The translations under genes and the position numbers were made by a program. This document shows positions 1,339 to 19,912 of a DNA stretch of 64,000 bases, piece by piece. The stretch is from Prevotella sp. (GTDB taxonomy: Bacteria; Bacteroidota; Bacteroidia; Bacteroidales; Bacteroidaceae): the NCBI GenBank assembly GCA_017471465.1, contig JAFUTI010000005.1, positions 21,847 through 85,846 of the forward strand. The letters are read 5' to 3'. Each line of letters begins with the position of its first letter. The first letter of the stretch is position 1. The notes below the pieces were generated by a model, which saw nothing but the letters and a program-made list of their open reading frames with translations, was not told the DNA's origin and made no database searches.

Positions 1339-1473
1339 AAAACCGCCAGATTCTTTTGGCAGATAAGAAAAAAGTTTTTCGCAAAGATGAGATTGACTCA
1401 ACATCTAAACTAAAAACGGTTAAGATTTATGCTTTTTTTAGTCAAAAAACATCCGAGAGTCAGGGAAATTGAT

Positions 1474-1481
1474 TATCTTTG
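1474..1481 (+). promoter_or_regulatory. -7 box of the defence-like operon
   Basis: TATCTTTG followed by CA fits the TAnnTTTG consensus and lies 30 bp before the ATG at 1511. It fixes the methyltransferase start: the longer reading frame beginning at 1469 would begin upstream of this promoter's transcription start. No clear TTG -33 element is seen. The AT-rich DNA at 1339-1473 shows no gene. Confidence 0.6.
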
Positions 1482-1510
1482 CAAGCATAATAAGAAACAA
1501 AGAGTGCAAT

Positions 1511-2572
1511 ATGGCAAACAAGAATCTGAATGCAGCGAAAGAGGCAAAGAAGGATGAATTCTATACACAATTGGAAGACATCAATAATGAGTTGCGTCAT
1601 TACCGTGAACACTTCCGAGGAAAGACAGTCCTTTGCAATTGTGATGATCCGCGTGTGTCGAATTTCTTCACATACTTTGCTTATAATTTTGAGTTCTTAG
1701 GATTGAAGCGGCTCATTACAACTTGCTACAAAAGCCAGGATATGGACTTGTTTAGTCAGAACAAGAGTGAACAAGCTATATACTTAATATATGATGGTGA
1801 CAAGAACGGGAACAACATTCCCGACCCAGAAGAAATAGGCATCCATCCGCTTAAAGGCAATGGGGATTTCCGTAGCCGTGAGTGTATTGAACTGCTGAAA
1901 CAGGCAGACATTGTGGTTACTAATCCTCCTTTCTCCCTGTTCCGTGAATATGTGGCGCAGTTGATGGAGTATGATAAGATGTTTTTGATAATTGGAAATG
2001 TCAACGCAATTAACTATCGCGAGATATTCCCATTCATCATGCAAAACAAAATCTGGTTAGGACCAAGCATTCATAGTGGAGACCGCAAATTTTGGGTCCC
2101 AGACAATTACGAATTGAATGCTTCAGGTTGTGGTATAGACGAAACAGGTAGAAAGTTTATACGTGTGAAAGGAGTAAGATGGTTTACTAATCTTGATTTC
2201 AAAGAACGTCACGAAGACCTAATTCTTTACAAGCATTTTATCCCAGAAGAATATCCTAAGTATGATAACTACGATGCTATAGAAATAAACAAGGTTGAGA
2301 ATATCCCTTGTGACTATGATGGTGTGATGGGCGTACCGCTTACTTTTCTTGACAAATACAATCCGGACCAGTTCGAGATAATTTGGCGCAGTCATGACAT
2401 AGAGTGGGCAGAGAATGGATGTACATTCTTTCGTCCTCCTACCGCAGAGAAACTGGCAAAATATAAGAAAGCAGATAAAACTTGGCGTGTGCAAATACCT
2501 TACATTACCGATGTCAACGACAATGCCAAGATGACTTATCAAAGAATATTCATTCGTAGAAAGAACAATTAA
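1511..2572 (+). CDS. EcoRI-family adenine-specific DNA methyltransferase
   Basis: 353 residues from the ATG at 1511. The N-terminal 'AKEAKKDEFYTQ' segment (9-20) is the hallmark of the M.EcoRI family (Pfam MT_EcoRI). 'VLCNCDDPRVS' (40-50) is the AdoMet-binding-like strand and loop, and 'VTNPPFSLF' contains the NPPF catalytic motif IV at 138-141 typical of N6-adenine methylation. The protein is slightly longer than M.EcoRI (about 326 residues). Its specificity is not readable from sequence, so a GAATTC target is not implied. No EcoRI-type restriction endonuclease gene is next to it. Instead it leads a five-gene operon whose second gene starts 2 bp after its stop. It may protect host DNA from a nuclease in the operon or mark DNA for recognition (inference). 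Confidence 0.85.
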   Translation: MANKNLNAAKEAKKDEFYTQLEDINNELRHYREHFRGKTVLCNCDDPRVSNFFTYFAYNFEFLGLKRLITTCYKSQDMDLFSQNKSEQAIYLIYDGDKNGNNIPDPEEIGIHPLKGNGDFRSRECIELLKQADIVVTNPPFSLFREYVAQLMEYDKMFLIIGNVNAINYREIFPFIMQNKIWLGPSIHSGDRKFWVPDNYELNASGCGIDETGRKFIRVKGVRWFTNLDFKERHEDLILYKHFIPEEYPKYDNYDAIEINKVENIPCDYDGVMGVPLTFLDKYNPDQFEIIWRSHDIEWAENGCTFFRPPTAEKLAKYKKADKTWRVQIPYITDVNDNAKMTYQRIFIRRKNN

Positions 2573-2574
2573 TT

Positions 2575-3645
2575 ATGATTAAGGAGATACAAATCATAAA
2601 CTATAAGTCTATTGTAGACTTAACCCTTGAGTTAGGCCGTTTCAATGTAATCATTGGAACAAACGGTTGTGGCAAGTCGAACATATTAGAGGCAATCACT
2701 GTCGCTTCAGCATCTCACCAACGCAAACTTGATACCGAGTTCTTGCTAAACAGAAATGTACGCGTGACAGAGCCTTTCTTTATGACGAATGCATTTGACG
2801 ATGTTGAACAAAATGACGGGCACATGTATTATGTTGTCATTGGGAATGATGGGCAATATTATAACATTGGCTTTAACCTAATATATTATGAAAAGACAAA
2901 GACTTGGATAAATTTATTGGAAGGATCTGTCTTACGACCAAATAATGTGATGAATCAGCAAGGGATGAATCCATTTGCTGCTGTCGTAGAGGAGTTTGCA
3001 TCTTTCCTGTCATATCGTCCTGTTGAAAACTTGTTGCGTGAAATGAAAGACTCGCCTATCTATCCGCTTGGCATACGTGGAGAAGGCTTGATGCAATATC
3101 TAAAGACCATCAGTACAAATGAAGATTACAGAGAACTGTTCTTGAAAATTAACGAGGGGTTAAGGATGCTTGACTGGTTTGACGGTTTTAATATTCCTGA
3201 TGGTTTGTTGTCGAATGAATACAAATTGTCTATTGGCGACAAATTCCTAAAAGACTCTTTACACTATTTCGACCAACGAAGCACGAATGAAGGTTTTCTC
3301 TATCTGTTGTTCTTTTTGACACTTTTCAACAGCAAAGACACTCCACAGTTTTTCGCTGTTGATAATATTGAAACATCTTTTAATCCTGGACTATGTCAGA
3401 ATCTTACCAAATATTTTGTCAAGACTACCAAGGAGAATGACAAACAGGTTATACTGACCACTCATAATCCCTTTGTGCTTGACGGAATGGACTTGTCAGA
3501 TGATGAAATCCGGCTGTTTGTCTGTCGGCGTGACATTGATGGGCATACGAAGATTGAGCGTGTGAAATATCGTGAGGACAGGAAGATGTCGCTTTCAGAG
3601 TTATGGATGTCAGGTTTAATTGGCGCACTGCCCGATAATTTCTAA
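2575..3645 (+). CDS. ABC/AAA-type ATPase (AAA_21/AAA_15-like), OLD/RloA-like
   Basis: 356 residues. 'FNVIIGTNGCGKSN' holds a Walker A motif at 28-35 directly after an 'INYKSI' N-terminal strand, as in RecF/OLD-like ATPases. 'STNEGFLYLLFF' (236-247) sits where the ABC signature helix is expected, 'FFAVDNIETSF' (259-269) is the Walker B region with D263 and E266, and 'TTHNP' (295-299) is the H-loop. The middle is divergent and there is no fused TOPRIM domain. The next gene supplies a TOPRIM-like protein, so the pair recalls two-gene defence systems such as PARIS (AriA/AriB) or RloA/RloB. Low GC relative to flanking genes. Precise family is uncertain. Confidence 0.85.
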   Translation: MIKEIQIINYKSIVDLTLELGRFNVIIGTNGCGKSNILEAITVASASHQRKLDTEFLLNRNVRVTEPFFMTNAFDDVEQNDGHMYYVVIGNDGQYYNIGFNLIYYEKTKTWINLLEGSVLRPNNVMNQQGMNPFAAVVEEFASFLSYRPVENLLREMKDSPIYPLGIRGEGLMQYLKTISTNEDYRELFLKINEGLRMLDWFDGFNIPDGLLSNEYKLSIGDKFLKDSLHYFDQRSTNEGFLYLLFFLTLFNSKDTPQFFAVDNIETSFNPGLCQNLTKYFVKTTKENDKQVILTTHNPFVLDGMDLSDDEIRLFVCRRDIDGHTKIERVKYREDRKMSLSELWMSGLIGALPDNF

Positions 3646-3650
3646 CTACT

Positions 3651-4301
3651 ATGAGCAAAAAGATAGGTATTGTAAGCGAAGGCGTTTCTGACTTCTGGGT
3701 GCTTCGCCATATTATCACAAGATATTTGAAAGATCAAGACCTGTGGGTATTACCATTAAATCCCAAGCAAACCAAGGACGGCAAGCAGGATGGTCCTGGT
3801 GGCTGGGGATTGGTGATGAAGTATCTTGAAGATAAAGAGAAAAAGCTAATGGTCGAAGCACTAAAGGAAGATTTTGAATATATCGTAGTGCAGATTGATA
3901 CTGATGTATGTGAAGAGTATGGTGTAAAGCATAATCTGACAGACATGGGCGTCTTTTGGCAGAACGTCTGCGACAATCTAAGCAATCGTCTGCCCGAAGA
4001 GTTCGACAGGAGCAAACTGATATTTGCTATCTGTATTGATGAAATAGAGTGTTGGCTGATACCATTTGTTGATGCTAACAGGAAAAATTGCGAAAGTACA
4101 AATCGGTGTGTCAACATCGTCAATAAGAACATCAAGGGTAAAGACCTCTTCATTGATGCAGACAACAAGAACAGCGATGGCGCAAAGAGTGCATACGATT
4201 ATATCCTGAAACAAAAGAAGAAACCAAAGGACATCAAGGAGTGTTCTTTGCATAACTATGGCTTTAAGAAATTCATTGAGCAACTTGACAAAATGGAGTG
4301 A
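3651..4301 (+). CDS. TOPRIM-like protein of DUF4276/RloB type, partner of the ATPase
   Basis: 216 residues, 5 bp after the ATPase gene. The start 'KIGIVSEGVSD' places E10 after the first strand, and 'YIVVQIDTD' places D83 and D85 as the DxD pair; these are the acidic positions of a TOPRIM metal site. 'ICIDEIECWLIPF' (127-139) resembles the 'E-x-WL' helix of DUF4276 and RloB-like proteins. A conserved Gly/Pro segment (47-53) follows a Lys-rich loop. The expected activity is metal-dependent nucleic-acid cleavage gated by the neighbouring ATPase, as in PARIS or OLD systems. That activity and the exact family are inference. Its stop lies 2 bp before the next ATG. Confidence 0.68.
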   Translation: MSKKIGIVSEGVSDFWVLRHIITRYLKDQDLWVLPLNPKQTKDGKQDGPGGWGLVMKYLEDKEKKLMVEALKEDFEYIVVQIDTDVCEEYGVKHNLTDMGVFWQNVCDNLSNRLPEEFDRSKLIFAICIDEIECWLIPFVDANRKNCESTNRCVNIVNKNIKGKDLFIDADNKNSDGAKSAYDYILKQKKKPKDIKECSLHNYGFKKFIEQLDKME

Positions 4302-4303
4302 CT

Positions 4304-5413
4304 ATGGATATTAATCAGCAAACAATTACGGTTCGTGACCTTGTGGATGGTTATATTAACGACCCAGATCACGGTGTGCGTGGATATGATGGACGTCTTG
4401 ACATTCGCCCACCTTACCAAAGAGAGTTTCGTTATGACACGAAGCAGAAACAGGCTGTGGTTAATACGATTTTAAAAGGATTTCCACTTAATATCATGTA
4501 TTGGAGTGTTGTAAATGAGAATCAGTTTGAAATGATTGACGGCCAACAACGCACACTTTCCATTTGTGAATACTTCACCCATGAGTTTAATATTGAAGAC
4601 CCTGACCGTGGCATTCTGTATTTCAGTTCGCTTACTCCCGACGAACAACAGAAGTTCTTGGACTATAAACTGACGGTTTACTTCTGCACAGGTACTGACA
4701 AGGAGAAGCTTGATTGGTTCCGCGTCATCAACATTGCAGGTGAACGACTGCTTGACCAAGAACTATTGAATGCTGTTTATGTCGGGCCTTTTGTTACTGA
4801 TGCTCGAAGGCATTTCTCTAAGGACGGATGCCCAGCCTATAAGATGGCCGCAGACTTATTAAACGGTGTGGCTCGCGAACAGGCTTATCTCCATACTGTT
4901 TTTCAATGGGCAGCTCGCCGCGAAGGAATTAAGGAGGTGAGCGAATACATGTCGAAGCATAAGGATGATGCCAATGCAAACCAACTTTGGGCCTATTTCT
5001 CGGCTATCGTAACTTGGGTGCGCTCTACCTTCATCAAGTATCGTAAAGAAATGAAAGGCTTGGATTGGGGTCTGCTCTATGACAACTACCACGATAATAT
5101 CTACGACACTACAGCCTTGGAACAGCGTATTCACGACCTCATGGAAGACGATGAGATTATGAAGAAGTCGGGTATTTATAGCTACGTGCTCAGCGGTGAC
5201 CTGCGCGACCTCAGTTTCCGCACCTTCGACAAGAAACAGAAGCGAGAAGCCTACGAGCGTCAACAAGGCATCTGCCCACATTGCGGCAAGCACTTTGAAC
5301 TGGAAGAAATGGAGGGCGACCATATCACTCCATGGGCAGAAGGTGGTGTAACGACTGCCGAAAACTGTCAAATGCTGTGCAAGGATTGTAATAGGAAGAA
5401 AGGGGCAAGGTAA
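4304..5413 (+). CDS. DUF262 (GmrS-like) and HNH endonuclease fusion protein
   Basis: 369 residues from the ATG at 4304; a GTG at 4298 would overlap the previous stop and is less likely. Residues about 8-110 are the DUF262/ParB-like domain with 'RPPYQREF' (36-43) and the 'DGQQRT' motif (79-84) that in GmrSD-type enzymes belongs to the nucleotide-handling site. A helical middle region follows. The C-terminus is an HNH nuclease: CPHC (324-327), 'GDHITPW' with D339-H340, N354, and CKDC (359-362), giving a zinc-bound beta-beta-alpha fold. Related fusions are type IV, modification-dependent restriction enzymes. In this operon it could be the nuclease that senses or is inhibited by methylation (inference). 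Confidence 0.85.
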   Translation: MDINQQTITVRDLVDGYINDPDHGVRGYDGRLDIRPPYQREFRYDTKQKQAVVNTILKGFPLNIMYWSVVNENQFEMIDGQQRTLSICEYFTHEFNIEDPDRGILYFSSLTPDEQQKFLDYKLTVYFCTGTDKEKLDWFRVINIAGERLLDQELLNAVYVGPFVTDARRHFSKDGCPAYKMAADLLNGVAREQAYLHTVFQWAARREGIKEVSEYMSKHKDDANANQLWAYFSAIVTWVRSTFIKYRKEMKGLDWGLLYDNYHDNIYDTTALEQRIHDLMEDDEIMKKSGIYSYVLSGDLRDLSFRTFDKKQKREAYERQQGICPHCGKHFELEEMEGDHITPWAEGGVTTAENCQMLCKDCNRKKGAR

Positions 5414-5415
5414 AT

Positions 5416-6243
5416 ATGGGACAATATGCTCACAACTTGGATAATTTAGAGGAAGAAATCTTTGAGATTATTCCTATGAGTTTTCTATCCTCACCTGTTT
5501 TTGAGAAAGAAATCCTAAAGAGCCAATATAGAGTACAATGGGGCATTCTAGTAGGTCTTGGATTTACTCTCAAAGAATCTCTTGAAGGGAAAGATGCTGT
5601 AACAAAGGTGAAGATAAAAAACATGTGTCGCTCACTAATTCAAGATGGAGCACCTTCAATTTATAAGTTTATATCATTTTTGGTTAAGTGTTACTGCGAG
5701 AATAATAATAAAAAGATAAATTTAAAAAAGATAAGGGCAACTCTATTATCTATTGGAGTCCTCAATACCCCTGAAATTGATATATATTCAGAAGATGCAC
5801 CTTTCACAAATAATCTCACAATAGAAATAACAAAATGGAATGAAATAAAGGATGCTATTTATCGACTTGAAAATGAGTGTCGGTATGCAGAAACCACAAT
5901 GGATTTTCAGAATTTAGGGAATTCTTGTCGCCATTTGCTTATAAAAGTTGCTCAAATGGTATATGATTCCCAAAAGCATAATAATATAACAGAATCAGGG
6001 GTGGAAATTGGAAAAAACGATGCTGAGGAGATGTTATCAAGCTATTTTGAATATTCATTAAAAGGGAAGCATAATAAATATCTCAAAGCATATGCAAAAG
6101 CAACAAACGACCTTGCAAATAAACTCACACATGATATGAGTGCAACGAAGAAAGATATGTTATTAGCCGTATCTGCAACTATCAATCTTATCTATATAGT
6201 AGGAACTATAGGAGACAAATTTAATCAAGGGAGTTTTGTGTAA
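5416..6243 (+). CDS. Unknown AT-rich operon protein, possible abortive-infection type C-terminus
   Basis: 275 residues, starting 2 bp after the HNH gene; the most AT-rich gene in the window. No family recognised with confidence. The N-terminal half contains 'VQWGILVGLGFTLKESL'; the C-terminal half is helical, with 'NLGNSCRHLLIKVAQ' (167-180), 'NDLANKLTHDMSA' (231-243) and a long hydrophobic helix 'AVSATINLIYIVGTI' (251-265). The spacing of a polar helix, a conserved 'N..TH' and a terminal hydrophobic helix resembles Abi-C/HEPN-like C-termini, but the RxxxxxH ribonuclease motif is not clear. Its operon position suggests an effector or accessory factor (inference). Confidence 0.72.
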   Translation: MGQYAHNLDNLEEEIFEIIPMSFLSSPVFEKEILKSQYRVQWGILVGLGFTLKESLEGKDAVTKVKIKNMCRSLIQDGAPSIYKFISFLVKCYCENNNKKINLKKIRATLLSIGVLNTPEIDIYSEDAPFTNNLTIEITKWNEIKDAIYRLENECRYAETTMDFQNLGNSCRHLLIKVAQMVYDSQKHNNITESGVEIGKNDAEEMLSSYFEYSLKGKHNKYLKAYAKATNDLANKLTHDMSATKKDMLLAVSATINLIYIVGTIGDKFNQGSFV

Positions 6244-6278: not shown

Positions 6279-6911
6279 ATGGAATACGGAATAGTTTATC
6301 TTTTGACCAATCCTGTAATGCCAGGGCTCGTGAAGATTGGCATGACCACACAGGAAGACATAGAAAGGAGAATGAGGGAACTCTATACAACGGGCGTCCC
6401 TGTTCCCTTTGAGTGCCAGTTCGCTTGCAAGGTAAAGAAAACCGATTGCGCCAAGATTGAGAAAGCCCTGCACACGGCATTCGCTCCGCAGCGCATCAAC
6501 GCCAACCGTGAGTTCTTCCGTATTCAGGTGGAGCAAGCCAAAGCCATTCTCGAACTGTTCCACCACACCGACGTGACCGAGGAGGTGAGCGACGAAATAG
6601 AAAACGACCTGACCGACGACGACAAGGCCGCATCGGTAAAGGCTCAGATTCACCGCCCCCCACTCAACTTCTACGAAATGGGCATGCAGAAAGGCGACGT
6701 GCTGACGTGGAAAGACGACCCCACGATAACAGTCACGATTGTCTCGGAGCGAAAAATCTGCTATGAAGGGGAAGAGACTTCCATCAGCGCGCTCTCTGCC
6801 AAACTGAAAGGATACAGGGTGAAGCACATTGCCCCCGGCGCCCATTGGCTCTATAAGGACAAACTACTCAGCGACATCTACGACGAAACATATCCGTTTG
6901 AAGAGATATAG
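6279..6911 (+). CDS. GIY-YIG nuclease family protein (T5orf172/MUG113 type) with small C-terminal domain
   Basis: 210 residues. The N-terminal ~90 residues are a GIY-YIG fold of the T5orf172/MUG113 group: 'GIVYLLTNP' and 'LVKIGMTT' are the GIY and YIG equivalents, 'IERRMREL' supplies the arginine, and 'KIEKALHTAF' with 'REFFRI' contain the conserved acidic helix. After an acidic linker (about 100-115) a second domain has 'GDVLTW', 'ICYEGEE', 'SALSAKLKGY' and 'HWLYKDKLLSDIY', a pattern resembling RAMA or DUF4357-type domains that accompany modification enzymes. GC content is higher than in the preceding five genes. It starts 35 bp after them, so it may be co-transcribed but might be a separate acquisition. 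Confidence 0.78.
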   Translation: MEYGIVYLLTNPVMPGLVKIGMTTQEDIERRMRELYTTGVPVPFECQFACKVKKTDCAKIEKALHTAFAPQRINANREFFRIQVEQAKAILELFHHTDVTEEVSDEIENDLTDDDKAASVKAQIHRPPLNFYEMGMQKGDVLTWKDDPTITVTIVSERKICYEGEETSISALSAKLKGYRVKHIAPGAHWLYKDKLLSDIYDETYPFEEI

Positions 6912-6971
6912 TAACATATAAGCAAGGAATCTATTTGTAACTAACGTAAACAGCATCCGCGCTACCCCATC

Positions 6972-7210
6972 CTACCGACGGACGATGACGCTGCCGCTGG
7001 CCTGGTGGGTAGCCAGTATCAGCACCTCGGCAATCTGCACATGCTCAGGGGCATTGGCAGCATAGACGGCCACGTCGGCAATATCGCCGGCTGTCAGGGG
7101 CTTGATGCCCTGATAGAGCTTGGCGGCGCGCTCGGTATGGCGAATTTCTTGGCGCAGCCAAGGCCGATGCCACTGGTGGTGCCTGTGATAAATACAGTTT
7201 TTTTCTTCAT
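6972..7210 (-). pseudogene. Short-chain dehydrogenase (SDR) remnant with internal deletion
   Basis: Reading the minus strand from ATG at 7210 gives 'KKTVFITGTTSGIGLGCA', the Rossmann TGxxxGIG motif of an SDR. After about 24 residues homology jumps, with a frame change, to a C-terminal SDR segment containing 'RAAKLYQGIKPL', 'DIADVAVYAAN' and 'EHVQIAEVLILATHQ', ending at TAG 6974-6972. About 170 of the usual ~250 residues, including the SYK catalytic region, are missing. The frame mismatch and loss of the active site show it is broken. It marks the downstream edge of the accessory region. Confidence 0.8.
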
Positions 7211-7278
7211 ATCGACTTCGCTACAAATAAGTTATTACGAAAGGTTGCTGCAAAGATAGTCTTTTTTTCATAATAACC

Positions 7279-7309
7279 TTGCGAAAAAAGAAAAAAAGTG
7301 GTACTTTTG
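7279..7309 (+). promoter_or_regulatory. Promoter of metY
   Basis: TTG at 7279-7281 and TACTTTTG at 7302-7309 are separated by 20 bp, matching the Bacteroidetes -33/-7 arrangement. The ATG at 7337 follows 27 bp later, so the leader is short and leaves no room for a riboswitch. Confidence 0.65.
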
Positions 7310-7336
7310 CACGCTGTAACAGAAACCGCAAAACAA

Positions 7337-8620
7337 ATGGAAAAGAAAATGAGGCCGGGTACGCTCTGCGTACAAGCTGGCTACAAGGCCAAGAACGGAG
7401 AACCGATAGAACTGCCCATCATCCAGTCGACGACGTTCAAGTACGACGACTCCGACGAGATGGCAAAGTTGTTTGACTTAGAGAAGGAGGGCTACTTCTA
7501 CACCCGCCTGCAAAACCCGACAAACGACGCCGTGGCTGCCAAAATTGCAGCCCTCGAAGGCGGCGTGGGCGCCGTGCTGACATCGTCGGGCCAGGCTGCC
7601 AACTTCTACGCCCTGTTCAACATCTGTCAGGCTGGCGACCACTTCGTCACCTCTAACGAGATTTACGGCGGCACCTACAACCTCTTCGGCGTGACGATGA
7701 AGAAGCTCGGCATCGAGTGCACCTTCGTGTCGCCCACCGCTACCGAGGAGGAGATTCTGGCAGCCTTCCGCCCAAACACAAAGGCGCTCTTCGGCGAGAC
7801 CATCACCAACCCCGGCTGCGCCGTGCTCGACATTGAGAAATTCGCACGCATCGCCCACAAGAACGGTGTGCCCCTGATCATCGACAACACCTTCCCCACC
7901 CCCGTCAACTGCCGTCCCTTCGAGTGGGGCGCCGACATCGTCACCCACTCTACCACGAAATATATGGACGGTATGGCCACACAGGTAGGCGGAGCCGTTG
8001 TCGACAGCGGCAACTTCGACTGGCTTCAGCATGCCGAGAAGTTCCCCGGACTCTGCACCCCCGACGAGTCGTACCACGGACTGACGTATGTAAAAGCCTT
8101 CGGCAAGATGGGCTACACCACGAAGCTCGTCGCCCAGCTCATGCGCGACCTAGGCTCCATCCCCGCCCCGCAGAACTCGTTCCTGCTGAACCTCGGACTG
8201 CAGACGCTCCATCTACGTATGGCTCAGCACTGTAGCAACGCCCAGCGCGTAGCCGAGTTCCTGCACGACAGCCCGAAGGTGGCGTGGGTACACTACAGCG
8301 GTCTGAAGGACGACCCCTACCACGAACTGGCACAGAAATACCTGCCCAACGGTTCGTGCGGCGTCATCGCCTTTGGTCTGAAGGGCGATCGTGCAACGGC
8401 CATCAAGTGGATGGACTCATTGGAAATGATCAACATCGTTACTCACGTTGCCGATGCCCGTACCTGTGTATTACACCCTGCCTCGCATACCCACCGCCAG
8501 CTCAGCGACGAGCAGCTGCGCGAGGCCGGTGTTGCCCCCGACCTCATCCGCCTCAGCGTCGGTATCGAGGACGTCGAAGATATTCTTGACGATATCAAAC
8601 AGGCGCTGGAAAAGATATAG
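7337..8620 (+). CDS. metY: O-acetylhomoserine sulfhydrylase (PLP-dependent)
   Basis: 427 residues from the ATG at 7337; the upstream extension to 7298 is excluded because it contains the promoter. It belongs to the Cys/Met metabolism PLP family: 'SSGQAANFYAL' binds the cofactor phosphate, 'LIIDNTFPTP' carries the PLP-ring aspartate D183, and 'HSTTKYMDG' carries the Schiff-base lysine K208. Overall length and the 'TPDESYHGLTY' insert fit the O-acetylhomoserine aminocarboxypropyltransferase group rather than cystathionine gamma-synthase. It makes homocysteine from O-acetylhomoserine and sulfide in the cytosol. Monocistronic by context: its own promoter upstream and a hairpin plus a different promoter type downstream. 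Confidence 0.92.
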   Translation: MEKKMRPGTLCVQAGYKAKNGEPIELPIIQSTTFKYDDSDEMAKLFDLEKEGYFYTRLQNPTNDAVAAKIAALEGGVGAVLTSSGQAANFYALFNICQAGDHFVTSNEIYGGTYNLFGVTMKKLGIECTFVSPTATEEEILAAFRPNTKALFGETITNPGCAVLDIEKFARIAHKNGVPLIIDNTFPTPVNCRPFEWGADIVTHSTTKYMDGMATQVGGAVVDSGNFDWLQHAEKFPGLCTPDESYHGLTYVKAFGKMGYTTKLVAQLMRDLGSIPAPQNSFLLNLGLQTLHLRMAQHCSNAQRVAEFLHDSPKVAWVHYSGLKDDPYHELAQKYLPNGSCGVIAFGLKGDRATAIKWMDSLEMINIVTHVADARTCVLHPASHTHRQLSDEQLREAGVAPDLIRLSVGIEDVEDILDDIKQALEKI

Positions 8621-8642
8621 ACCTTCATTTACGCAAAGAGAA

Positions 8643-8686
8643 ACTGCCAGAATGTCGCGCTGTTATGACAATCTGGCAGTGTTTTT
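8643..8686 (+). terminator. Inverted repeat after metY, probable terminator
   Basis: ACTGCCAGA (8643-8651) and TCTGGCAGT (8672-8680) form a perfect 9-bp stem. After an A-A mismatch, TGTC (8653-8656) pairs with GACA (8667-8670). A GTTTTT run follows, so it can terminate metY. Its near-perfect symmetry and position just upstream of the sigma-54 promoter mean it could instead, or also, be a protein-binding operator. Confidence 0.55.
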
Positions 8687-8691
8687 ATCAC

Positions 8692-8707
8692 TGGCACGCA
8701 ACTTGCA
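8692..8707 (+). promoter_or_regulatory. Sigma-54 (-24/-12) promoter of hsp20
   Basis: TGGCACG (8692-8698), four bases, then TTGCA (8703-8707) is an exact match to the RpoN consensus YTGGCACGnnnnTTGCW, including the C before TGG and the GG/GC spacing. The hsp20 start codon lies 84 bp downstream. No TAnnTTTG box is seen in the leader. Confidence 0.7.
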
Positions 8708-8791
8708 TTACCTACAGTGAAAGCCGCAAGGCAATCAAAGAAAACAAGAATGTTAAACCCTTTAAAACAATAGAATTAGGAGGTAATGATT

Positions 8792-9217
8792 ATGCTACCA
8801 GTAATGTTTAAGAACAGTTGGTTTCCCACAGTATTTGACGAGTTTCTGAACAGCGACGTCACGCCGAGCACCTGCACAACGACAGCACCGGCCGTCAATG
8901 TGAAGGAGGATGAGAAGGCTTATACGATGGAGGTGGCCGCCCCTGGCATCAAGAAAGAGTACTGCCGCGTGAGCCTCAACGAAGACGGCAACCTGTCGAT
9001 AGCCATCGAGAACAAGATGGAGCACAAGGAGGAGGACAAGAAGCAGCACTACCTGCGCCGCGAGTTCTCGTACACGAACTACCAGCAGAACTACTCGCTG
9101 CCCGAGGACGTGGTGAAGGACAAGATTTCGGCTCGCGTCGAGAACGGCATCCTGACCGTCACACTGCCGAAGCAGGAGAAAGAGGCAAAGGTCTCCAAGA
9201 GCATTGAAATATCATAA
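8792..9217 (+). CDS. Hsp20/alpha-crystallin small heat shock protein
   Basis: 141 residues. A strong Shine-Dalgarno sequence, TTAGGAGG at 8776-8783, puts the start at the ATG at 8792, since the ATG at 8786 is only 2 bases from it. The N-terminal arm is short; the alpha-crystallin domain spans about 30-130 with 'YTMEVAAPGIKKEYCRVSL' and the conserved 'VENGILTVTLPK' near the end; the C-terminal 'SIEIS' supplies the IxI oligomerisation motif. It acts as an ATP-independent holdase in the cytosol. The upstream sigma-54 promoter suggests stress control by an enhancer-binding protein. Confidence 0.93.
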   Translation: MLPVMFKNSWFPTVFDEFLNSDVTPSTCTTTAPAVNVKEDEKAYTMEVAAPGIKKEYCRVSLNEDGNLSIAIENKMEHKEEDKKQHYLRREFSYTNYQQNYSLPEDVVKDKISARVENGILTVTLPKQEKEAKVSKSIEIS

Positions 9218-9260
9218 CAGCAGGCACTTTTAACAAATTGCAAACTTTTTCTGAAAAATA

Positions 9261-9294
9261 TCCGACAGTTTCCTTGGAAGCTGTCGGATTTTTT
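9261..9294 (+). terminator. Intrinsic terminator of hsp20
   Basis: TCCGACAGTTTCC pairs with GGAAGCTGTCGGA across 9261-9288 with a 2-base loop and one G-T pair, followed by a run of six T. The right arm and loop overlap the -33 element of the gdhA promoter. Confidence 0.8.
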
Positions 9295-9304
9295 CTTATA
9301 TTTG
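9274..9304 (+). promoter_or_regulatory. Promoter of gdhA
   Basis: TTG at 9274-9276 and TATATTTG at 9297-9304, 20 bp apart, match the Bacteroidetes consensus. The -33 box sits inside the hsp20 terminator hairpin. The gdhA ATG is 43 bp downstream. Confidence 0.65.
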
Positions 9305-9347
9305 CACAGTCTAATAACAAAATGACACCTTATTCAATCAAAAGACT

Positions 9348-10685
9348 ATGGAAGTAACTAAAATCATGCAAGACCTGGAACGCAAACATCCAGGTGAGTT
9401 AGAGTATCTTCAAGCCGTACGCGAAGTACTGGAAAGTATCAAGGACGTCTACAATCAGCATCCTGAGTTTGAGAAAGCTAAGATTGTGGAGCGCATTGTC
9501 GAGCCGGAGCGCATCGTGACGTTCCGCGTGCCCTGGGTCGACGACAAGGGCGAGGTGCAGGTGAACCTGGGCTATCGCGTCCAGTTCAACAGCGCCATCG
9601 GCCCCTACAAGGGCGGACTAAGGTTCCATGCTTCTGTCAACCTGTCTATCCTGAAATTCCTGGGCTTTGAACAGACGTTCAAGAACGCACTGACGACGCT
9701 GCCCATGGGCGGCGGCAAGGGCGGCAGCGACTTCTCAATCCGTGGCAAGAGCGACGCTGAGGTGATGCGCTTCTGTCAGGCCTTTATGACAGAATTGTAC
9801 CGCCATATTGGTCCCGACGAGGACGTGCCCGCCGGCGACATCGGCGTCGGTGCCCGCGAGATAGGTTTCCTTTACGGCCAGTACAAGAAGCTGACCCATC
9901 AGTTCCAAGGCGTGCTGACAGGCAAGGGCCGCGAGTGGGGCGGCAGTATCCTGCGTCCGGAGGCTACGGGCTATGGTGCCCTGTACTTCGTCAACCAGAT
10001 GCTGACGGAGCACGGTCTTGACATCAAGGGTAAGACGGTGGCCCTGTCGGGCTTCGGCAATGTGGCCTGGGGTGCCGCCAAGAAAGCGACTGAACTGGGC
10101 GCTAAGGTCATCACCATCAGCGGTCCCGACGGCTACATCTACGATCCTGCCGGACTCAATGCCGAGAAGATCGACTACCTGCTGGAGCTGCGCGGCTCGG
10201 GCAACGATATCTGTGAGCCTTACGCTGAGGAGTTTGATGGCTCGACCTTCTACGCTGGCAAGAAGCCTTGGGAACAGAAAGCTGACATCTATCTGCCCTG
10301 CGCTACCCAGAACGAGCTGAACGGCGACGACGCCGACAAAATACTGGCTCACAAGCCGCTCTGCGTAGCCGAGGTGTCGAACATGGGCTGCACGGCAGAG
10401 GCTGCCGAGAAGTTCATTGCCGCCGGGCAGCTCTTTGCCCCGGGCAAAGCTGTCAATGCCGGTGGCGTGGCTACCAGCGGTCTGGAGATGAGCCAAAATT
10501 CGATGCGTCTGTCGTGGACGGCCGAGGAGGTCGACCAGCGCCTGCACCAGATTATGTCGGGTATCCATGAGCAGTGTGTCAAGTACGGCAAGGAATCCAA
10601 CGGATACATCAATTATGTAAAGGGTGCCAACGTTGCTGGCTTCATGAAGGTGGCCAAAGCCATGCTGGCACAGGGTATTGTATGA
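9348..10685 (+). CDS. gdhA: NADP-type glutamate dehydrogenase
   Basis: 445 residues, the usual length of hexameric small-subunit GDH. The signature 'LPMGGGKGGSDF' contains the catalytic lysine K124, preceded by 'GPYKGGLRFH' (85-94) for glutamate binding. 'ALSGFGNVAWGAA' is the dinucleotide-binding fold. The enzyme makes glutamate from 2-oxoglutarate and ammonium. NADP preference is inferred from overall similarity to bacterial GdhA. The last codons overlap the start of the RlpA-like gene (ATGA at 10682-10685). Confidence 0.95.
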   Translation: MEVTKIMQDLERKHPGELEYLQAVREVLESIKDVYNQHPEFEKAKIVERIVEPERIVTFRVPWVDDKGEVQVNLGYRVQFNSAIGPYKGGLRFHASVNLSILKFLGFEQTFKNALTTLPMGGGKGGSDFSIRGKSDAEVMRFCQAFMTELYRHIGPDEDVPAGDIGVGAREIGFLYGQYKKLTHQFQGVLTGKGREWGGSILRPEATGYGALYFVNQMLTEHGLDIKGKTVALSGFGNVAWGAAKKATELGAKVITISGPDGYIYDPAGLNAEKIDYLLELRGSGNDICEPYAEEFDGSTFYAGKKPWEQKADIYLPCATQNELNGDDADKILAHKPLCVAEVSNMGCTAEAAEKFIAAGQLFAPGKAVNAGGVATSGLEMSQNSMRLSWTAEEVDQRLHQIMSGIHEQCVKYGKESNGYINYVKGANVAGFMKVAKAMLAQGIV

Positions 10686-11050
10686 CCTACAGACTGCCGA
10701 CCGTCATAGTATTATCAGTCATTTTAGGCTTTTCCGTGCTGGCACAGAATATCCAGCGCGGAAAAGCCTCTTACTATTCTAAGCGGTGGACAGGACGCCA
10801 TGTCGCCAGTGGCGAGCGTCTGCATCACGACTCGATGACCTGTGCCCACCGTACTTACCCCTTCGGCACACTACTGCGCGTCACTAATCTGAGGAACGGT
10901 CTGCAGGTGGTGGTTCGTGTCAACGACCGCGGACCCTTCGGACGCGGACGCATCGTCGACCTGTCGTGGGGAGCCGCCAAGAAACTAAACATGTTGGGAG
11001 CAGGGGTCGTTCCCTGCACGGTGGAGCGCCTCGACTCCATCGCCAAATAA
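10682..11050 (+). CDS. RlpA-like double-psi beta-barrel secreted protein
   Basis: 122 residues, starting at the ATG that overlaps the gdhA stop. An N-terminal hydrophobic signal (about 5-20, ending 'SVLAQ') precedes a double-psi beta-barrel with 'GKASYYSKRWTGRHVASGE', 'FGTLLRVTNL', 'VNDRGPF' and 'IVDLSWGAAKKL', the conserved RlpA core. There is no SPOR domain, so it is the short form. RlpA proteins are periplasmic or outer-membrane factors acting on glycan strands, some being lytic transglycosylases; activity here is not proven. Translational coupling to gdhA is unexpected given the unrelated roles. Confidence 0.85.
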   Translation: MTYRLPTVIVLSVILGFSVLAQNIQRGKASYYSKRWTGRHVASGERLHHDSMTCAHRTYPFGTLLRVTNLRNGLQVVVRVNDRGPFGRGRIVDLSWGAAKKLNMLGAGVVPCTVERLDSIAK

Positions 11051-11056
11051 GCGATA

Positions 11057-11794
11057 TCAGCGCTTGAAGGTTGCAATACGCAGAAGCTGACTCTGCGACG
11101 ACACCTCGCGGCCAGCCTGGAAGACAGACACCTTAATGACAGCCTCGCCATTGCGTAGACCGTGGTCGGCCTTGACCTGTGCCGTGTAGCGAATCACCTC
11201 GTTAGGATGGATACACTCCACGAGAATATTCTCCGAGATATGGATGTGCTTGTTGCCCGTCATCTCGCGGACGGAGGGCTGTACGCTGTAGATAGGCTTC
11301 GACGACGTATTGCGAATTTCGAACACGATATGCGCTGACTCGTCGCGCTTCAGCTGACCGTCGTTCGTGGCATCCACCAACTGCACATGGCTGATTTCCA
11401 ACGCCGCAGCATTGGCCACGTAGCCACGAGGCATCGTGCCGCCGTCCATCGTGATACGGTCGTCGCCACGTCCCCGTGGGTCGTAACCGCTATCGTCCTG
11501 CACCTGACGGGTATTGATGCCCGTACGCCCCTCGTAACGCTCGGCACGCTCCTGCCTGCGCTCTTCGGCAGCACGGTCGGCCGCAGACCCGACGGCTGCG
11601 CCGACGGCAGCACCACCGGCCAGCCCTATCAGTTTGCCAACCTCATGGCCGCGCCATCCGCCTGAGATGCCGCCCACAGCCGAGCCGATGATAGAGCCGA
11701 ACTGTGCGCCGGTATAGGCGCCAACTCCTGTGTATGTGCTACAACTGCTCATGACGAGCAGTACAGTTAGCGAAAGCAAAAAAGTCTTCTTCAT
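11057..11794 (-). CDS. Lipoprotein with glycine-zipper segment
   Basis: 245 residues. The signal ends 'LLVMSSCS', a lipobox with Cys at position 18. Residues about 23-75 are rich in G-x-x-x-G spacing ('GAQFGSIIGSAVGG', 'GLAGGAAVGAAVGS'), a glycine-zipper that can insert in or associate with the outer membrane. A charged Arg/Glu-rich linker follows. The C-terminal ~110 residues look like a beta-sandwich ('ESAHIVFEIRNTS', 'IRYTAQVKADHGLRNGEA'). Exact function unknown. It is transcribed toward the RlpA-like gene with only 6 bp between the stops. Confidence 0.8.
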   Translation of the reverse strand: MKKTFLLSLTVLLVMSSCSTYTGVGAYTGAQFGSIIGSAVGGISGGWRGHEVGKLIGLAGGAAVGAAVGSAADRAAEERRQERAERYEGRTGINTRQVQDDSGYDPRGRGDDRITMDGGTMPRGYVANAAALEISHVQLVDATNDGQLKRDESAHIVFEIRNTSSKPIYSVQPSVREMTGNKHIHISENILVECIHPNEVIRYTAQVKADHGLRNGEAVIKVSVFQAGREVSSQSQLLRIATFKR

Positions 11795-11822
11795 GTTTTC
11801 TTCATGTTAGCGTTTCACGGTG

Positions 11823-11853
11823 CAAAGATAACAGATTCCGCACATCTTTCAAA
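11823..11853 (-). promoter_or_regulatory. Promoter of the glycine-zipper lipoprotein gene
   Basis: On the minus strand TATCTTTG (11830-11823) lies 19 bp downstream of a TTTG at 11853-11850, a good Bacteroidetes -33/-7 pair. The ATG at 11794 is 28 bp further on. Confidence 0.65.
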
Positions 11854-11885
11854 TGGAATTTCCCTAAACAGGCATAGGAAAATCC

Positions 11886-14800
11886 CTACCGTGCCGTCTT
11901 TGGGAAACAGAAACTGCGGCACCCCGTGGCCTTGAAGCCCCAGCTGTCGGCAGCCTCCACCTCGACTCTATGGGCACCCCGGCGGTACGCCTCGGGCAAC
12001 GTCAGCGTCCACATCTGTTGCGAGTCGCGATGGCGCAGCGGGTTCATGCGGTTATACGTCGTGGGGTATGCCTTGAGCAGGTTCATCTCACGGGTACGGG
12101 CCACGTTGGGGTCTATCATCTTCGTCTTCTGGCAGGCCAGCCACTCGCCACCGTCGATGCGACAACGCACGGTAGTGCTGTCGCAACCGCCGTAGACGGT
12201 CATCATCAGCTGTCCGCCAGGCACGTCTTTCATATCGCGCAGATGGGTGTCGAGGGTATCGATGCCAGTGACGTGGATGGTCATCTGGTGGCGCGCGTCA
12301 CGGCCGATGGCCTTGCAGCGCATCGTGTAACTGGTATCGTCGAAGTCGAGGACGAAATAGTTGCGCGGCGTGCCACACTGCTGCAGGGCTGACGGCACAC
12401 CGTCGGCGTCTTTCTCGCCAACCCACCAGAAGCCACAGGAGGCACCAGCGCTCAACTCATGGACGCGGACGCCCTCGCCCTGGTGGAAGAAGCGTCCCAC
12501 CTGGTGCATATGTCCCGTGACAGCGAGCACGTCGCCCCTACCCTCTAACAGCTTGAGCAGTTCGCCACGGTTGCGGGTGTGTGCCAGTGGGATGTGCATG
12601 CTGAGCACAATCAGGCGGTCATGGGGCACGTACTTCAGGTCTTGTTTGACGAAACGGAGCTGGCGGGCTGACAGGCGGCCTCTATAGCCACGGGCACCGT
12701 CGCCATAGACGTTGTTTAGGATAATAAAATGTACGCGACCCTCGTTGAAGGCATACATATCGGCGCCAAAGACTTCATTATAGGTACGCGTCTGCTGCCA
12801 GCGCACGGTGTCGATATCGCGGTCGTGATTGCCCAGCACGGTCCACGTCTGCTGCGGCAGTTGCTCCATCAGCGTGCGCAGGTCGCCGTAGAGTTTAAGG
12901 TTGTTGTTCACCAAGTCGCCGAGGAAGAGGTTGACAGAGGGCGTCGCCGCTCCGTCATCGTCTAACAGCTCGGGCCATAGTGTGCGTGTGGCATAGTCCT
13001 GTTCCTGGTAGTTGCCCACCTGCACGTCGCCGATAGCATTCAGGCGGAAGCGGCGGTTCACCTTCTTCTTGACCATGGCGAAGTCGGCATGACCGGAGCG
13101 ATAGCTGAAGTTAGCGTTCACCACCCTACTGCCCGACATGGTATAGTCGGCAGGCAGGATGGGCATGACACTGGTGCCCTCGACGTAGGGCAGTTCGTAG
13201 CGTCCCTGACGGTCGGTACGTACTATCGTGTCACCATTGCTGACGAGGATGTCCTTGATGCCGCGCTCGCCATTATCGAGTTTGCCGTTCTGATTACGGT
13301 CGTCGAAGACCATGCCACTGACGGGAGCTGCCGCTGGTGCGGCGGGAACTGCGGCGGCGGTGTCGGCAGGCAGCAGTACGGCTTTTATCTGATAGGCATC
13401 ACGCAGGGCGTAGCGGGCGTAGTCGGCAAGGTCCTTCATCGTCATGCTGTTGACGACATCGACATAGCGGTCGTTCCACGTCCAGTCCTCGTTGTTGTTA
13501 TAGACGGAATTGCGGATGAACGATGTCCAGTACGACGTCTGCTGCAGCTGCAGGGCGTGCTCCTTGACAAGGTTCTGCCTGACGTCGGCCAGACTGGCCT
13601 CATAGCGCTCGGGGTGGTCGCACAGCTGCTGCATCTCGTCATAGACGGCAGCCACGAGCGTGTCGACGTCGGCAGGCTGACAGACGAAGGCAATAGTGCC
13701 GCGACTGAGGAATGAGGGATACTGCGTGGCACCGATAGAAGCCGATACGGAGTAGACCTTGCCCATATCCTCGCGCAACCGCTTCAGCAGTGCTGTACGC
13801 AGGATGGCTTTCAGCGCATTGCCTTTCAGTTCCTGTTCGGCCAAGCTGCCCTGGGGCTCGTCTTGCTGACAGACGAGCGTCACCATAGCCTTCGGCTGGT
13901 CGTAGGTGCGCCGTATCAGTTCGGTGTTGCTGTGTGGTATCTGGCGCTGACCAGCTATCCACGTGGTATCAGCCTGACCTGCGGGCAGTGCGCCGAGGTA
14001 GGTGCTGATATAGGGGCGCACGTCGGCCAAGTCGCAGTCGGACAGGATGACGAACGTATAGCCCGTGGCGGGTCCATAGAAGTGGTGCTGCAGCGGCAGG
14101 ATGTCGTCCTGGCGCACAGCGGTGTTGATAATGCTGTCGGTCAGCTGCTGACTGGTATAGTTGCGTCCACTCATCAGCCACCCCAGCTCGCGTGTGAAAA
14201 CATCACGCGGTGTGTCTTTTCGGTTACGGTTGCCCTCACGCAGCTTGTCGAGCGTCATGCGGTAGACAGCCGTGTCGAGTCGCGGCTGTGTCCAGCGCAG
14301 CCACAACAGTTGGAACATCGTCTCGACGTCGGCCAAATGGGCCGAGGCGGCCACACCGGTACGCAGCTTGTCGACCAGCATACGGACGGAAGCGGTGTTG
14401 CCCGTCAGATAGTGACTCAGCGCCTCGCGGCTGAAGTCGCCCGCCCCGCTCAGGCTGACGACGCTGGGGCCTACGACGGAGGTGAAGTAGCGGGTACTGT
14501 CGAGCCCGTACTGACCACCTTTACGGAAAGCCGATAGCGTCAGGTGGTCGTGCTCGGTATCGGAATGACGGAAAATGACCCGGGCGCCATTGTCCAGACG
14601 CAGCTCTGTAGCGCCAATGGCGGCTATGGGCTGCTCGCTCACGATGTGCTTCAGGGTAGGCTTTAGCGTGGTCAGCGTCTCTGGTATGTCTATCTGTTTC
14701 CAGTAGCGCTCCACCTGCTCCTGACGACACTCGTCAATGAGCATGGTCAGGTCGGCCTCGTTCGACACCTCCTGACGCACCTCCTCGCCACCGCGCAACA

Positions 14801-16169: not shown

Positions 16170-16198
16170 AAACAGATTTCTCTTTCCTCTTTTTGGGG

Positions 16199-16265
16199 CG
16201 TCACTGTCGCCGCCACTGCAAACGGCACGCCATCAGGCTGTTGCAGAAAAGTGGCGACAGTGACG
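16199..16265. repeat. Long GC-rich inverted repeat
   Basis: CGTCACTGTCGCC (16199-16211) and GGCGACAGTGACG (16253-16265) form a perfect 13-bp stem; an inner CTGCA/TGCAG pair (16216-16220 and 16242-16246) extends it. It lies in the 105-bp gap between the beta-propeller gene and the M16 fusion gene. It has no T-run on either strand, so it is not a standard terminator. It may be a processing hairpin or a mobile-type palindromic element. Confidence 0.7.
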
Positions 16266-16274
16266 ACCAAGAAC

Positions 16275-17936: not shown

Positions 17937-17967
17937 AAGCGTTAATAATTTAGTAAATTTTGTATTG

Positions 17968-18438
17968 TTAATTATTCCGTTTCTCTATAATGACCTCGCT
18001 CTGCTTGTGGTCGGGTCCGGGGTAGCCAAGGTTATAGCCCTTGCTGTTGGCGGTCAGGCGGATGGTGACGGTATTGTCTTTGGCAGGGTCAACGGGATTC
18101 TTCAGCCAGCGGATGCGGATGGGCATGTCGTAGATGCCGGGCAGAAACACCAGAGGGTTCTGCGAGGTGACAACCTTGTAGTCGACGTCCTCGACAAGGC
18201 CGTCGCCCACCACTACTTCATAGCTGACGGTGAGACTGTCGTCGTCGGCCAGCGGTGTCGACGACAGGTAGACACTATAGGTATTGACATTGCGCACATC
18301 GGAGAGCACCACCGTCGAGGAGGCGCCCGTGGAAGTGGCTATGCGCACGAAAGGCGTGTCAAACCATTCGCCCTCCTGGTCGGCACACGAGCAAAGCACG
18401 GCCACCAATGTCAGAACATAAAAGATTTTCTTCATCAT
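17968..18438 (-). CDS. Small SusCD-associated lipoprotein (DUF4843-like)
   Basis: 156 residues (tandem ATGs, either may start). The N-terminus 'LVAVLCSCADQ' is a lipobox. The body is one beta-sandwich-like domain with 'VNTYSVYLSST', 'LTVSYEVVVGDGLVEDVDY' and 'IRIRWLKNP', similar in size and pattern to DUF4843 or Calx-beta-like lipoproteins that follow susD genes. Probably surface-exposed and anchored to the outer membrane. Start is 20 bp after the susD stop. Family name is tentative. Confidence 0.72.
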   Translation of the reverse strand: MMKKIFYVLTLVAVLCSCADQEGEWFDTPFVRIATSTGASSTVVLSDVRNVNTYSVYLSSTPLADDDSLTVSYEVVVGDGLVEDVDYKVVTSQNPLVFLPGIYDMPIRIRWLKNPVDPAKDNTVTIRLTANSKGYNLGYPGPDHKQSEVIIEKRNN

Positions 18439-18457
18439 CTATTCGCGTTATTCGTTG

Positions 18458-19900: not shown

Positions 19901-19912
19901 AATCAACACGCT

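Follow-up and report, generated by a model that had tools for sequence, protein, structure and literature searches.

Here, we describe a putative mobile defence operon in DNA of Prevotella sp. (GenBank assembly GCA_017471465.1, contig JAFUTI010000005.1, positions 21,847 to 85,846 of the forward strand; the whole 64,000-nucleotide stretch is called the window). At its base lies a two-gene restriction-modification pair, an EcoRI-family methyltransferase (M) and a DUF262-HNH endonuclease (R), which in the window is separated by an ATPase gene and a TOPRIM gene and followed by a copy-specific gene (gene 5) and a GIY-YIG gene. Comparisons of related loci indicate that the second half of M is swapped while R stays nearly unchanged (94 to 99% identical between such copies), which suggests that R borrows its DNA target from M. 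The account favored here, in which M provides specificity for both marking and cutting, R is a specificity-poor, nucleoside triphosphate (NTP)-dependent nuclease, and the ATPase-TOPRIM pair is an inserted backup, is in our judgment probable as a whole, though far from certain. A preliminary description of the sequence had recognized a defence locus and had counted the ATPase-TOPRIM pair and the DUF262-HNH protein each as a defence module. This much holds, and the interpretation is partly supported overall, but neither the GIY-YIG gene nor the exchange within M was noticed in it.

Exchange within M beside a nearly constant R

In four copies of the operon (the window and loci L027, L221, and L222; L numbers denote loci used for comparison), the ATPase-TOPRIM pair is nested between M and R. 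Among these four, M is 92 to 99% identical over residues 1 to 160, 55 to 78% over residues 161 to 290, and 22 to 42% of aligned positions from residue 291 on, whereas R is 94 to 97% identical. At the DNA level, the window and L221 agree at 85 to 100% over positions 1526 to 2005, at 37 to 73% over 2006 to 2605, and at 97 to 100% just beyond; the exchange in the window copy of M thus begins at about 2006, and identity to L221 is restored at about 2606. A second pair of loci from different metagenome bins (L054 and L060) repeats the pattern, with DNA identity falling in the second half of M, R at 93 to 100% per 60-base block, and R proteins that differ at only 4 residues.

For a wider comparison, filters on length and start removed 35 of 172 loci, which left 137 with complete M and R. 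Over residues 301 to 330 of M, mean identity is down to 0.03 to 0.04; the lowest 15-residue block of R stands at 0.24, where the family varies in length. Spearman correlation with R identity is 0.46 for the first part of M, 0.29 for the central segment, and 0.06 for the C-terminal segment. The C-terminal segment is at least 60% identical in only 103 of the 9,007 locus pairs having R at 38 to 98%, and where R is 90 to 98% identical, a C-terminal allele is held in common (at least 60%) by 2 of 17 pairs. Above that level (R at least 98%), 12 of 15 pairs share the allele, and all 12 are near-duplicate contigs. The reverse combination also occurs: L044 and L202 have distant R proteins (36%) and a common C-terminal allele (92%), and L262 has an M that is 95% identical to that of the window over 352 residues, including the C terminus, with R at 86%.

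The two segments also recombine with each other. Clustering at 55% (duplicates kept in) sorted the C-terminal segments into 61 clusters and the central segments into 28. Of the 27 C-terminal clusters with more than one member, 20 pair with two or more central clusters. Two alleles of the central segment are common, and its many others are rare. Allele changes were counted on an R tree of 129 nonduplicate loci. For the C-terminal segment, 24 alleles from 92 loci require 64 changes, where the minimum would be 23 and shuffling gives a mean of 75.3 and a lowest value of 69; for the central segment, nine alleles from 110 loci require 39, where the minimum would be 8 and shuffling gives a mean of 51.4 and a lowest value of 43. 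Because these counts approach the shuffled values but stay below them, the decoupling of M alleles from R, as read from these sequences, is strong yet incomplete.

M and R as a two-gene pair

Genome contigs were scanned with an R alignment, and the best 80 of 396 relatives were read, together with the best 80 of 134 on viral contigs; many of the loci are metagenome bins. Of these 80 genome loci, 79 have M next to R, complete or as far as the contig reaches; in the sole exception (L062), R begins 29 nucleotides (nt) from the contig end. The order is R-M in one of these 79 loci (L059) and mostly M then R elsewhere. On the viral contigs, M is present in 77 of the best 80 loci and adjacent to R in 76 (L195 has M further off), and the three loci without M begin no more than 151 nt from the contig end. 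On four plasmids, M and R overlap or abut, as annotated. At an E value of 1e-40, 120 of the 398 genus genomes have an R homologue, a count based on R alone.

These data identify M and R as a widespread two-gene restriction-modification pair that recurs across phyla. The methyltransferase is therefore not solitary, as had first been supposed, because R is its constant partner. No further copies of M that could serve as silent alleles were found in the genome of the window, which holds one M and one R (assembly, 63% complete).

In L259, M lies 13 bp before an R that is 95% identical to that of the window, with nothing inserted. Elsewhere, the genes between M and R include BRO-N (L014), Fic (L054, L056, and L060), and unclassified open reading frames (ORFs) (L032, L043, and L180). 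Because such genes occupy the M-R junction, it looks like a site of repeated insertion.

EcoRI-type control loci

The EcoRI endonuclease reads its DNA target itself. EcoRI-type systems pair an M of the family studied here with another type of R (PF02963), whose gene precedes that of M in the loci read. A PF02963 search of 238 genomes gave one match above the cut-off (L267) and one weak match, which was not used. A tblastn search with the Escherichia coli enzyme gave 19 plasmid records, of which nine were taken; L272 and L273 were set aside, their proteins being the same as others. Two viral contigs joined the set. Ten loci were chosen and nine kept, L279 (Acinetobacter) being left out because no methylase of the M family was found there. 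R identities involving L275 are lowered because its R match starts at query residue 83.

The C-terminal segment is 71 to 100% identical and the central segment 58 to 93% identical in all 36 control pairs, with R at 45 to 92%. The regions of M that are shuffled beside DUF262-HNH are thus those that stay fixed beside a nuclease with its own specificity. An EcoRI-like C-terminal allele (62 to 81%) occurs in three DUF262-HNH loci (L063, L074, and L055), in different central clusters, and an EcoRI-like central segment (67 to 72%) occurs in five (four distinct), with other C termini. Compared with EcoRI, then, the pair has an M of the same family (PF13651) that is alignable across its first half, and some loci even have EcoRI-like segments; it differs in that R is DUF262-HNH, the order is mostly M-R, and the putative recognition segments are shuffled. 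On a Rhodococcus plasmid (L278), a DUF262 gene (5206 to 5825) is annotated about 0.8 kb after the EcoRI restriction-modification pair.

The control bears on a conventional Type II reading, in which R recognizes a sequence of its own that matches that of M, and the variable parts of M serve something other than specificity (for example, escape from phage inhibitors) or are loosely constrained. The two-gene layout, with M and R side by side at the frequencies given above, is ordinary for Type II, PADLOC matches R over its full length with a Type II restriction enzyme model, and some congruence with the R tree remains. Variable parts of M should, however, be fixed for near-identical R proteins; the C-terminal allele is common in only 2 of 17 such pairs, compared with 36 of 36 in the EcoRI-type set (an indirect comparison), and unrelated alleles accompany near-identical R proteins. 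Conservation in every control pair is also what would be expected of target readers, and the EcoRI-like C-terminal allele joins other central segments in three DUF262-HNH loci. We regard the Type II reading as unlikely. The variable segments of M are better taken as putative recognition domains that would set specificity.

R protein and proposed mechanism

Pfam matches of R above the cut-off are GmrSD_N (E value, 6.9e-16), HNH PF01844 (3.6e-15), and HNH_5; DUF1524 is not listed at an E value of 1 in the same search. Structure models of R and M were made from 70 sequences each, without plasmid rows. The R model (predicted local distance difference test [pLDDT] score, 91) has as its best PDB matches an HNH nickase, BrxU (second; E value, 3e-3), and ParB/Noc CTP-binding proteins. 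Ratios of nonsynonymous to synonymous substitution (dN/dS) among the nested copies, which are rough because many synonymous distances are near saturation, are 0.01 to 0.05 for R, 0.07 to 0.13 for TOPRIM, and 0.03 to 0.08 for GIY-YIG. R is under strong purifying selection.

R resembles GmrSD, BrxU, and SspE in joining a DUF262 domain with DGQQR to a His-metal nuclease, and differs from them in that the nuclease is HNH PF01844 rather than DUF1524 and that a methyltransferase is a constant partner. It is thus not of the GmrSD type (DUF262 plus DUF1524), although GmrSD_N is present, and the constant M argues against GmrSD-type Type IV action on modified DNA. A related alternative is an SspE- or Type IV-like enzyme that senses adenine methylation generally, without binding M, and is licensed or restrained by it, so that any M would serve; it overlaps the favored account as a branch. 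The DGQQR domain common to R and GmrSD-type enzymes would suit it, as would the presence of BrxU among the best, though weak, fold matches of R. The HNH nuclease, with DUF1524 not among the Pfam matches, does not fit, and an M constantly at hand would be needless for modification-dependent Type IV enzymes. This alternative seems doubtful.

Type III (Mod-Res) systems likewise combine a methyltransferase that has exchangeable target-recognition parts with a conserved partner. The same pattern is found here at the level of sequence, with the DNA reading of the exchangeable part putative. No helicase-type Res is seen, and the Pfam and fold matches of R do not make it a helicase-motor Res. The M-R pair is therefore no clean member of Type II, III, or IV, and it appears to work most like Type III without a helicase. 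In the literature searched, no paper on the pair was found, and EcoRI-methylase and DUF262 never occurred together.

On the favored account, M would methylate adenines (it is presumably an adenine N6 methyltransferase, going by its family) in a target that a central and a C-terminal segment, both exchangeable and both in its second half, would read. Methylation probably marks self, as the preliminary description had it. R would be a cutting subunit that hardly varies and brings no matching specificity itself. It would act on unmethylated copies of the M target, whether bound to M or guided by the state in which M leaves the DNA. One R could then serve many M specificities, a Type III-like logic built from EcoRI-family parts.

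Several points weigh against this account. Where R is 80 to 90% identical, 9 of 56 pairs share a C-terminal allele, and the congruence left with the R tree (64 changes against a lowest shuffled value of 69) has the same tendency. The locus pairs compared are nonindependent, the filters removed 35 of the 172 loci, and many loci are metagenome bins. The control set is small, with 9 loci, and its C-terminal segment as cut has just 14 residues, compared with a median of 31 and a range of 16 to 85 in the DUF262-HNH set; its specificity is taken to be GAATTC. The M model (pLDDT, 86.5; about 73 to 91 in the C-terminal segment) has no PDB match at an E value of 0.001 or better, and M has no known structure by sequence either. 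The PDB matches of R are weak (best E value, 2e-3; low template modeling scores), the helical middle between its two domains could read DNA, and PADLOC files it as a Type II enzyme, the conventional reading. The backup role of the ATPase-TOPRIM pair is drawn by analogy.

The inserted ATPase-TOPRIM pair

The ATPase and the protein after it match the PADLOC models PDC-M31A and PDC-M31B in that order (Table 1), and their genes are neighbors in the loci read. PARIS consists of an AriA ATPase with an AriB TOPRIM (DUF4435). The window pair resembles it in having an OLD/ABC-type ATPase followed by a TOPRIM protein, and the ATPase matches the AriA model (E value, 1.2e-24), but the partner matches the PDC-M31B and HEC-01B models only, with no match to AriB, and the pair is placed inside a restriction-modification operon; it is thus not PARIS proper. 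By analogy, the most likely role of the pair is that of a PARIS-like backup. Nesting of this kind, with a backup effector inside a restriction operon, has parallels, such as PrrC in EcoprrI. PMC12707154 presents PrrC and PARIS as guardians, and PMC12839542 describes OLD-TOPRIM pairs in BREX loci. The host operon here differs, being EcoRI-family M plus DUF262-HNH and not Type I or BREX. No paper on PDC-M31 was found in the literature searched.

The middle of the ATPase (residues 43 to 175) is 41 to 68% identical in five of the six pairs of nested copies and 97% identical between the window and L221, with ends at 80 to 98%; L027 has a very different, longer middle. This variable middle might be a sensor region, and in the proposed scheme the OLD-like pair would act independently, the middle sensing a phage product and triggering the TOPRIM nuclease. 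In L221, a second ATPase and partner (312 and 287 amino acids; positions 10012 to 11810), which look by eye like ATPase plus DUF4435, stand right after the GIY-YIG gene, and L221 thus holds two ATPase pairs within one operon.

TOPRIM matches were found in 9 of the 398 genomes of the genus, with the nested order in three (the window, L221, and L222) and another order in L223, where the pair lies about 400 bp after a more distant M-R (R, 52% identical). In the remaining five (L224, L225, L226, and L228 intact; L227 a fragment), the stretch read contains neither M nor R. Among 393 Bacteroidales genomes there are six TOPRIM matches, and both genes are lacking from the stretches read at the five loci other than the window (L111 is on a short contig). 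On plasmids, the five loci examined, of 8 ATPase records at 80% coverage or more, have the pair without M or R. The pair was seen in none of the other 79 genome loci with R among the best 80, nor in the best 80 viral loci, and the viral contigs hold no close relative of TOPRIM.

A TAnnTTTG element precedes the ATPase start by 24 to 26 nt in L221, L027, L222, and L223 and is absent before that gene in the window, where M and the ATPase are 2 bp apart. To judge from this element, the pair may normally carry its own promoter, and the window copy looks as if it had been fused to M. That the pair has an element of its own in four other copies slightly strengthens its reading as an insert.

The preliminary description had proposed one composite system of five genes. 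A co-dependent system of five or six genes would agree with the tight spacing and with the order M-ATPase-TOPRIM-R in four genomes (the window, L027, L221, and L222), to which a fifth (L223) adds M-R, a gap, and ATPase-TOPRIM. M and R, however, recur as a unit of two genes across phyla, and the pair is mostly elsewhere: it was not seen in the other 79 genome loci and the viral loci with R, most of its other occurrences in the stretches read lack M-R, four other copies have a promoter-like element before the ATPase, and Fic, BRO-N, and unclassified ORFs fill the M-R slot in its place. Gene 5 was in no other copy seen. We consider co-dependence very unlikely. Of the recurrence that was to support a system, the M-ATPase-TOPRIM-R order is found in 3 of the 398 genus genomes plus L027, but the five-gene set was seen in no other copy; the unrelated contexts that were to speak against one are partly seen, the pair lying away from M and R, within the stretches read, in five of nine genus genomes, five other Bacteroidales, and five plasmids.

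Locus organization and exchange site

The five plus-strand ORFs first described are separated by gaps of 2, 5, 2, and 2 bp and are AT-richer than their surroundings, as reported: their G+C content is 32.6 to 45.6%, compared with 51.5% in the GIY-YIG gene after them, 54.6% in positions 1 to 1465, 57.2% in positions 7298 to 20000, and 51.9% in the whole window. PADLOC labels M a Type II methyltransferase and R a Type II restriction enzyme, and gives gene 5 no label. The motifs GTNGCGKS, SEG..DTD (gene 3), DGQQR and HNH (R), and NPPF (M) are intact as judged by eye, and gene 3 is presumed to be a TOPRIM protein alongside its PDC-M31B match. Feature coordinates are given in Table 1.

Table 1. Features of the operon in the window and the promoter-like element in other loci
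Feature	Position	Strand	Evidence
Promoter region and leader, TAnnTTTG element at 1474-1481	1466..1510	+	Sequence
M, EcoRI-family methyltransferase, 353 amino acids	1511..2572	+	PF13651 EcoRI_methylase, full length, E 9e-144
M central variable segment, residues 150-226, first putative recognition element	1958..2188	+	Protein comparisons
M hypervariable C-terminal segment, residues 291-338, second putative recognition element	2381..2524	+	Protein comparisons
ATPase of inserted pair (PADLOC PDC-M31A; AAA_21/SMC-like, OLD/SMC-like)	2575..3645	+	PDC-M31A E 2.1e-67
ATPase variable middle, residues 43-175	2701-3099	+	Protein comparisons
TOPRIM/DUF4276-like partner (PADLOC PDC-M31B)	3651..4301	+	PDC-M31B E 1.7e-12; DUF4276 E 2e-4, sub-threshold
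R, DUF262/GmrSD_N (ParB/Noc-like NTPase) and HNH endonuclease, 369 amino acids	4304..5413	+	PADLOC REase_II, full length, E 1e-125
Gene 5, copy-specific insert between R and GIY-YIG gene	5416..6243	+	No family above cut-off
T5orf172/GIY-YIG protein (PADLOC PDC-S57), last conserved gene of the unit	6279..6911	+	PDC-S57 E 2.7e-80
Element before ATPase in other loci	L221 6474; L027 5086; L222 6771 (reverse strand); L223 6402		TAnnTTTG

A near relative (L214, genome G443) matches the window at 95.9% over positions 1 to 1487 and at 98.5% over 6946 to 7141, and between those flanks it has about 4.8 kb of different genes. The promoter side thus stays while cassettes change, and the locus is, by this comparison, a chromosomal exchange site. 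Of the single TAnnTTTG promoter proposed earlier for the five genes, the element at 1474 stands, but the promoter side belongs to the host site. The element also precedes the first gene in L214, L221, L027, L222, and L032, but the stretches read of L028, L029, and L030 do not show it there. The flanks of the exchange site in the window are 1 to 1487 and 6946 to 8619. In L214, the cassette comprises an HNH-like protein (first), a 368-amino-acid ORF, a 245-amino-acid ORF, a TnpB-like ORF, and a 210-amino-acid ORF (names by eye), and its HNH-like gene, full or shortened, is also upstream of M in L221 and L259.

The conserved fifth gene of the unit is the GIY-YIG gene, which comes last in the proposed operon, and not gene 5. 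It lies 2 bp after R in L221, is separated from R by a different 122-amino-acid ORF in L027, and is a shortened ORF in L222, where residues 107 to 209 only match. Its one close relative on viral contigs (L205) is on 12.6 kb without M or R.

Gene 5 was considered as a conserved component and rejected, being in no other operon copy seen. Its relatives, three clear and two weak among 392 other genomes, match mostly the C-terminal half (residues ~125 to 268), and none stands beside M or R in the stretches read. Two of the clear relatives are close to other restriction-like genes, by eye from the ORFs. Gene 5 has no PADLOC or NCBIfam match; there is one sub-threshold Pfam match (E value, 0.09), two marginal PHROG matches (0.013 and 0.052), and, among its relatives in Pfam, a sub-threshold DUF1978 match only. 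In other Bacteroidales, L113 and L114 have proteins of about 350 amino acids that are related to this C-terminal half, beside restriction-like ORFs (by eye).

Significance

Extended to the family, the favored account is one that we hold with confidence and doubt in equal measure. It describes a widespread family in which an EcoRI-family M with two independently exchangeable recognition segments would lend specificity to a near-invariant, NTP-dependent ParB/Noc-like-HNH nuclease, a helicase-free form of Type III-like sharing, and in which other defence genes (ATPase-TOPRIM, Fic, and BRO-N) repeatedly enter the M-R slot. If R borrows its target from M, the cutting subunit would be re-aimed by replacing half of one gene. 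The family could in this way change what it restricts as it spreads, which would account for its presence in many phyla and on phage-like contigs, and the restriction systems that share specificity would gain a member without a helicase. The central and C-terminal segments of M would then be natural cassettes. One C-terminal allele is already tied to EcoRI (presumably GAATTC), and the three loci that have it beside different central segments (L063, L074, and L055) offer natural tests of half-site recognition. The locus is also an example of a restriction operon that carries a putative backup module, placed here between the genes for self-marking and cutting.

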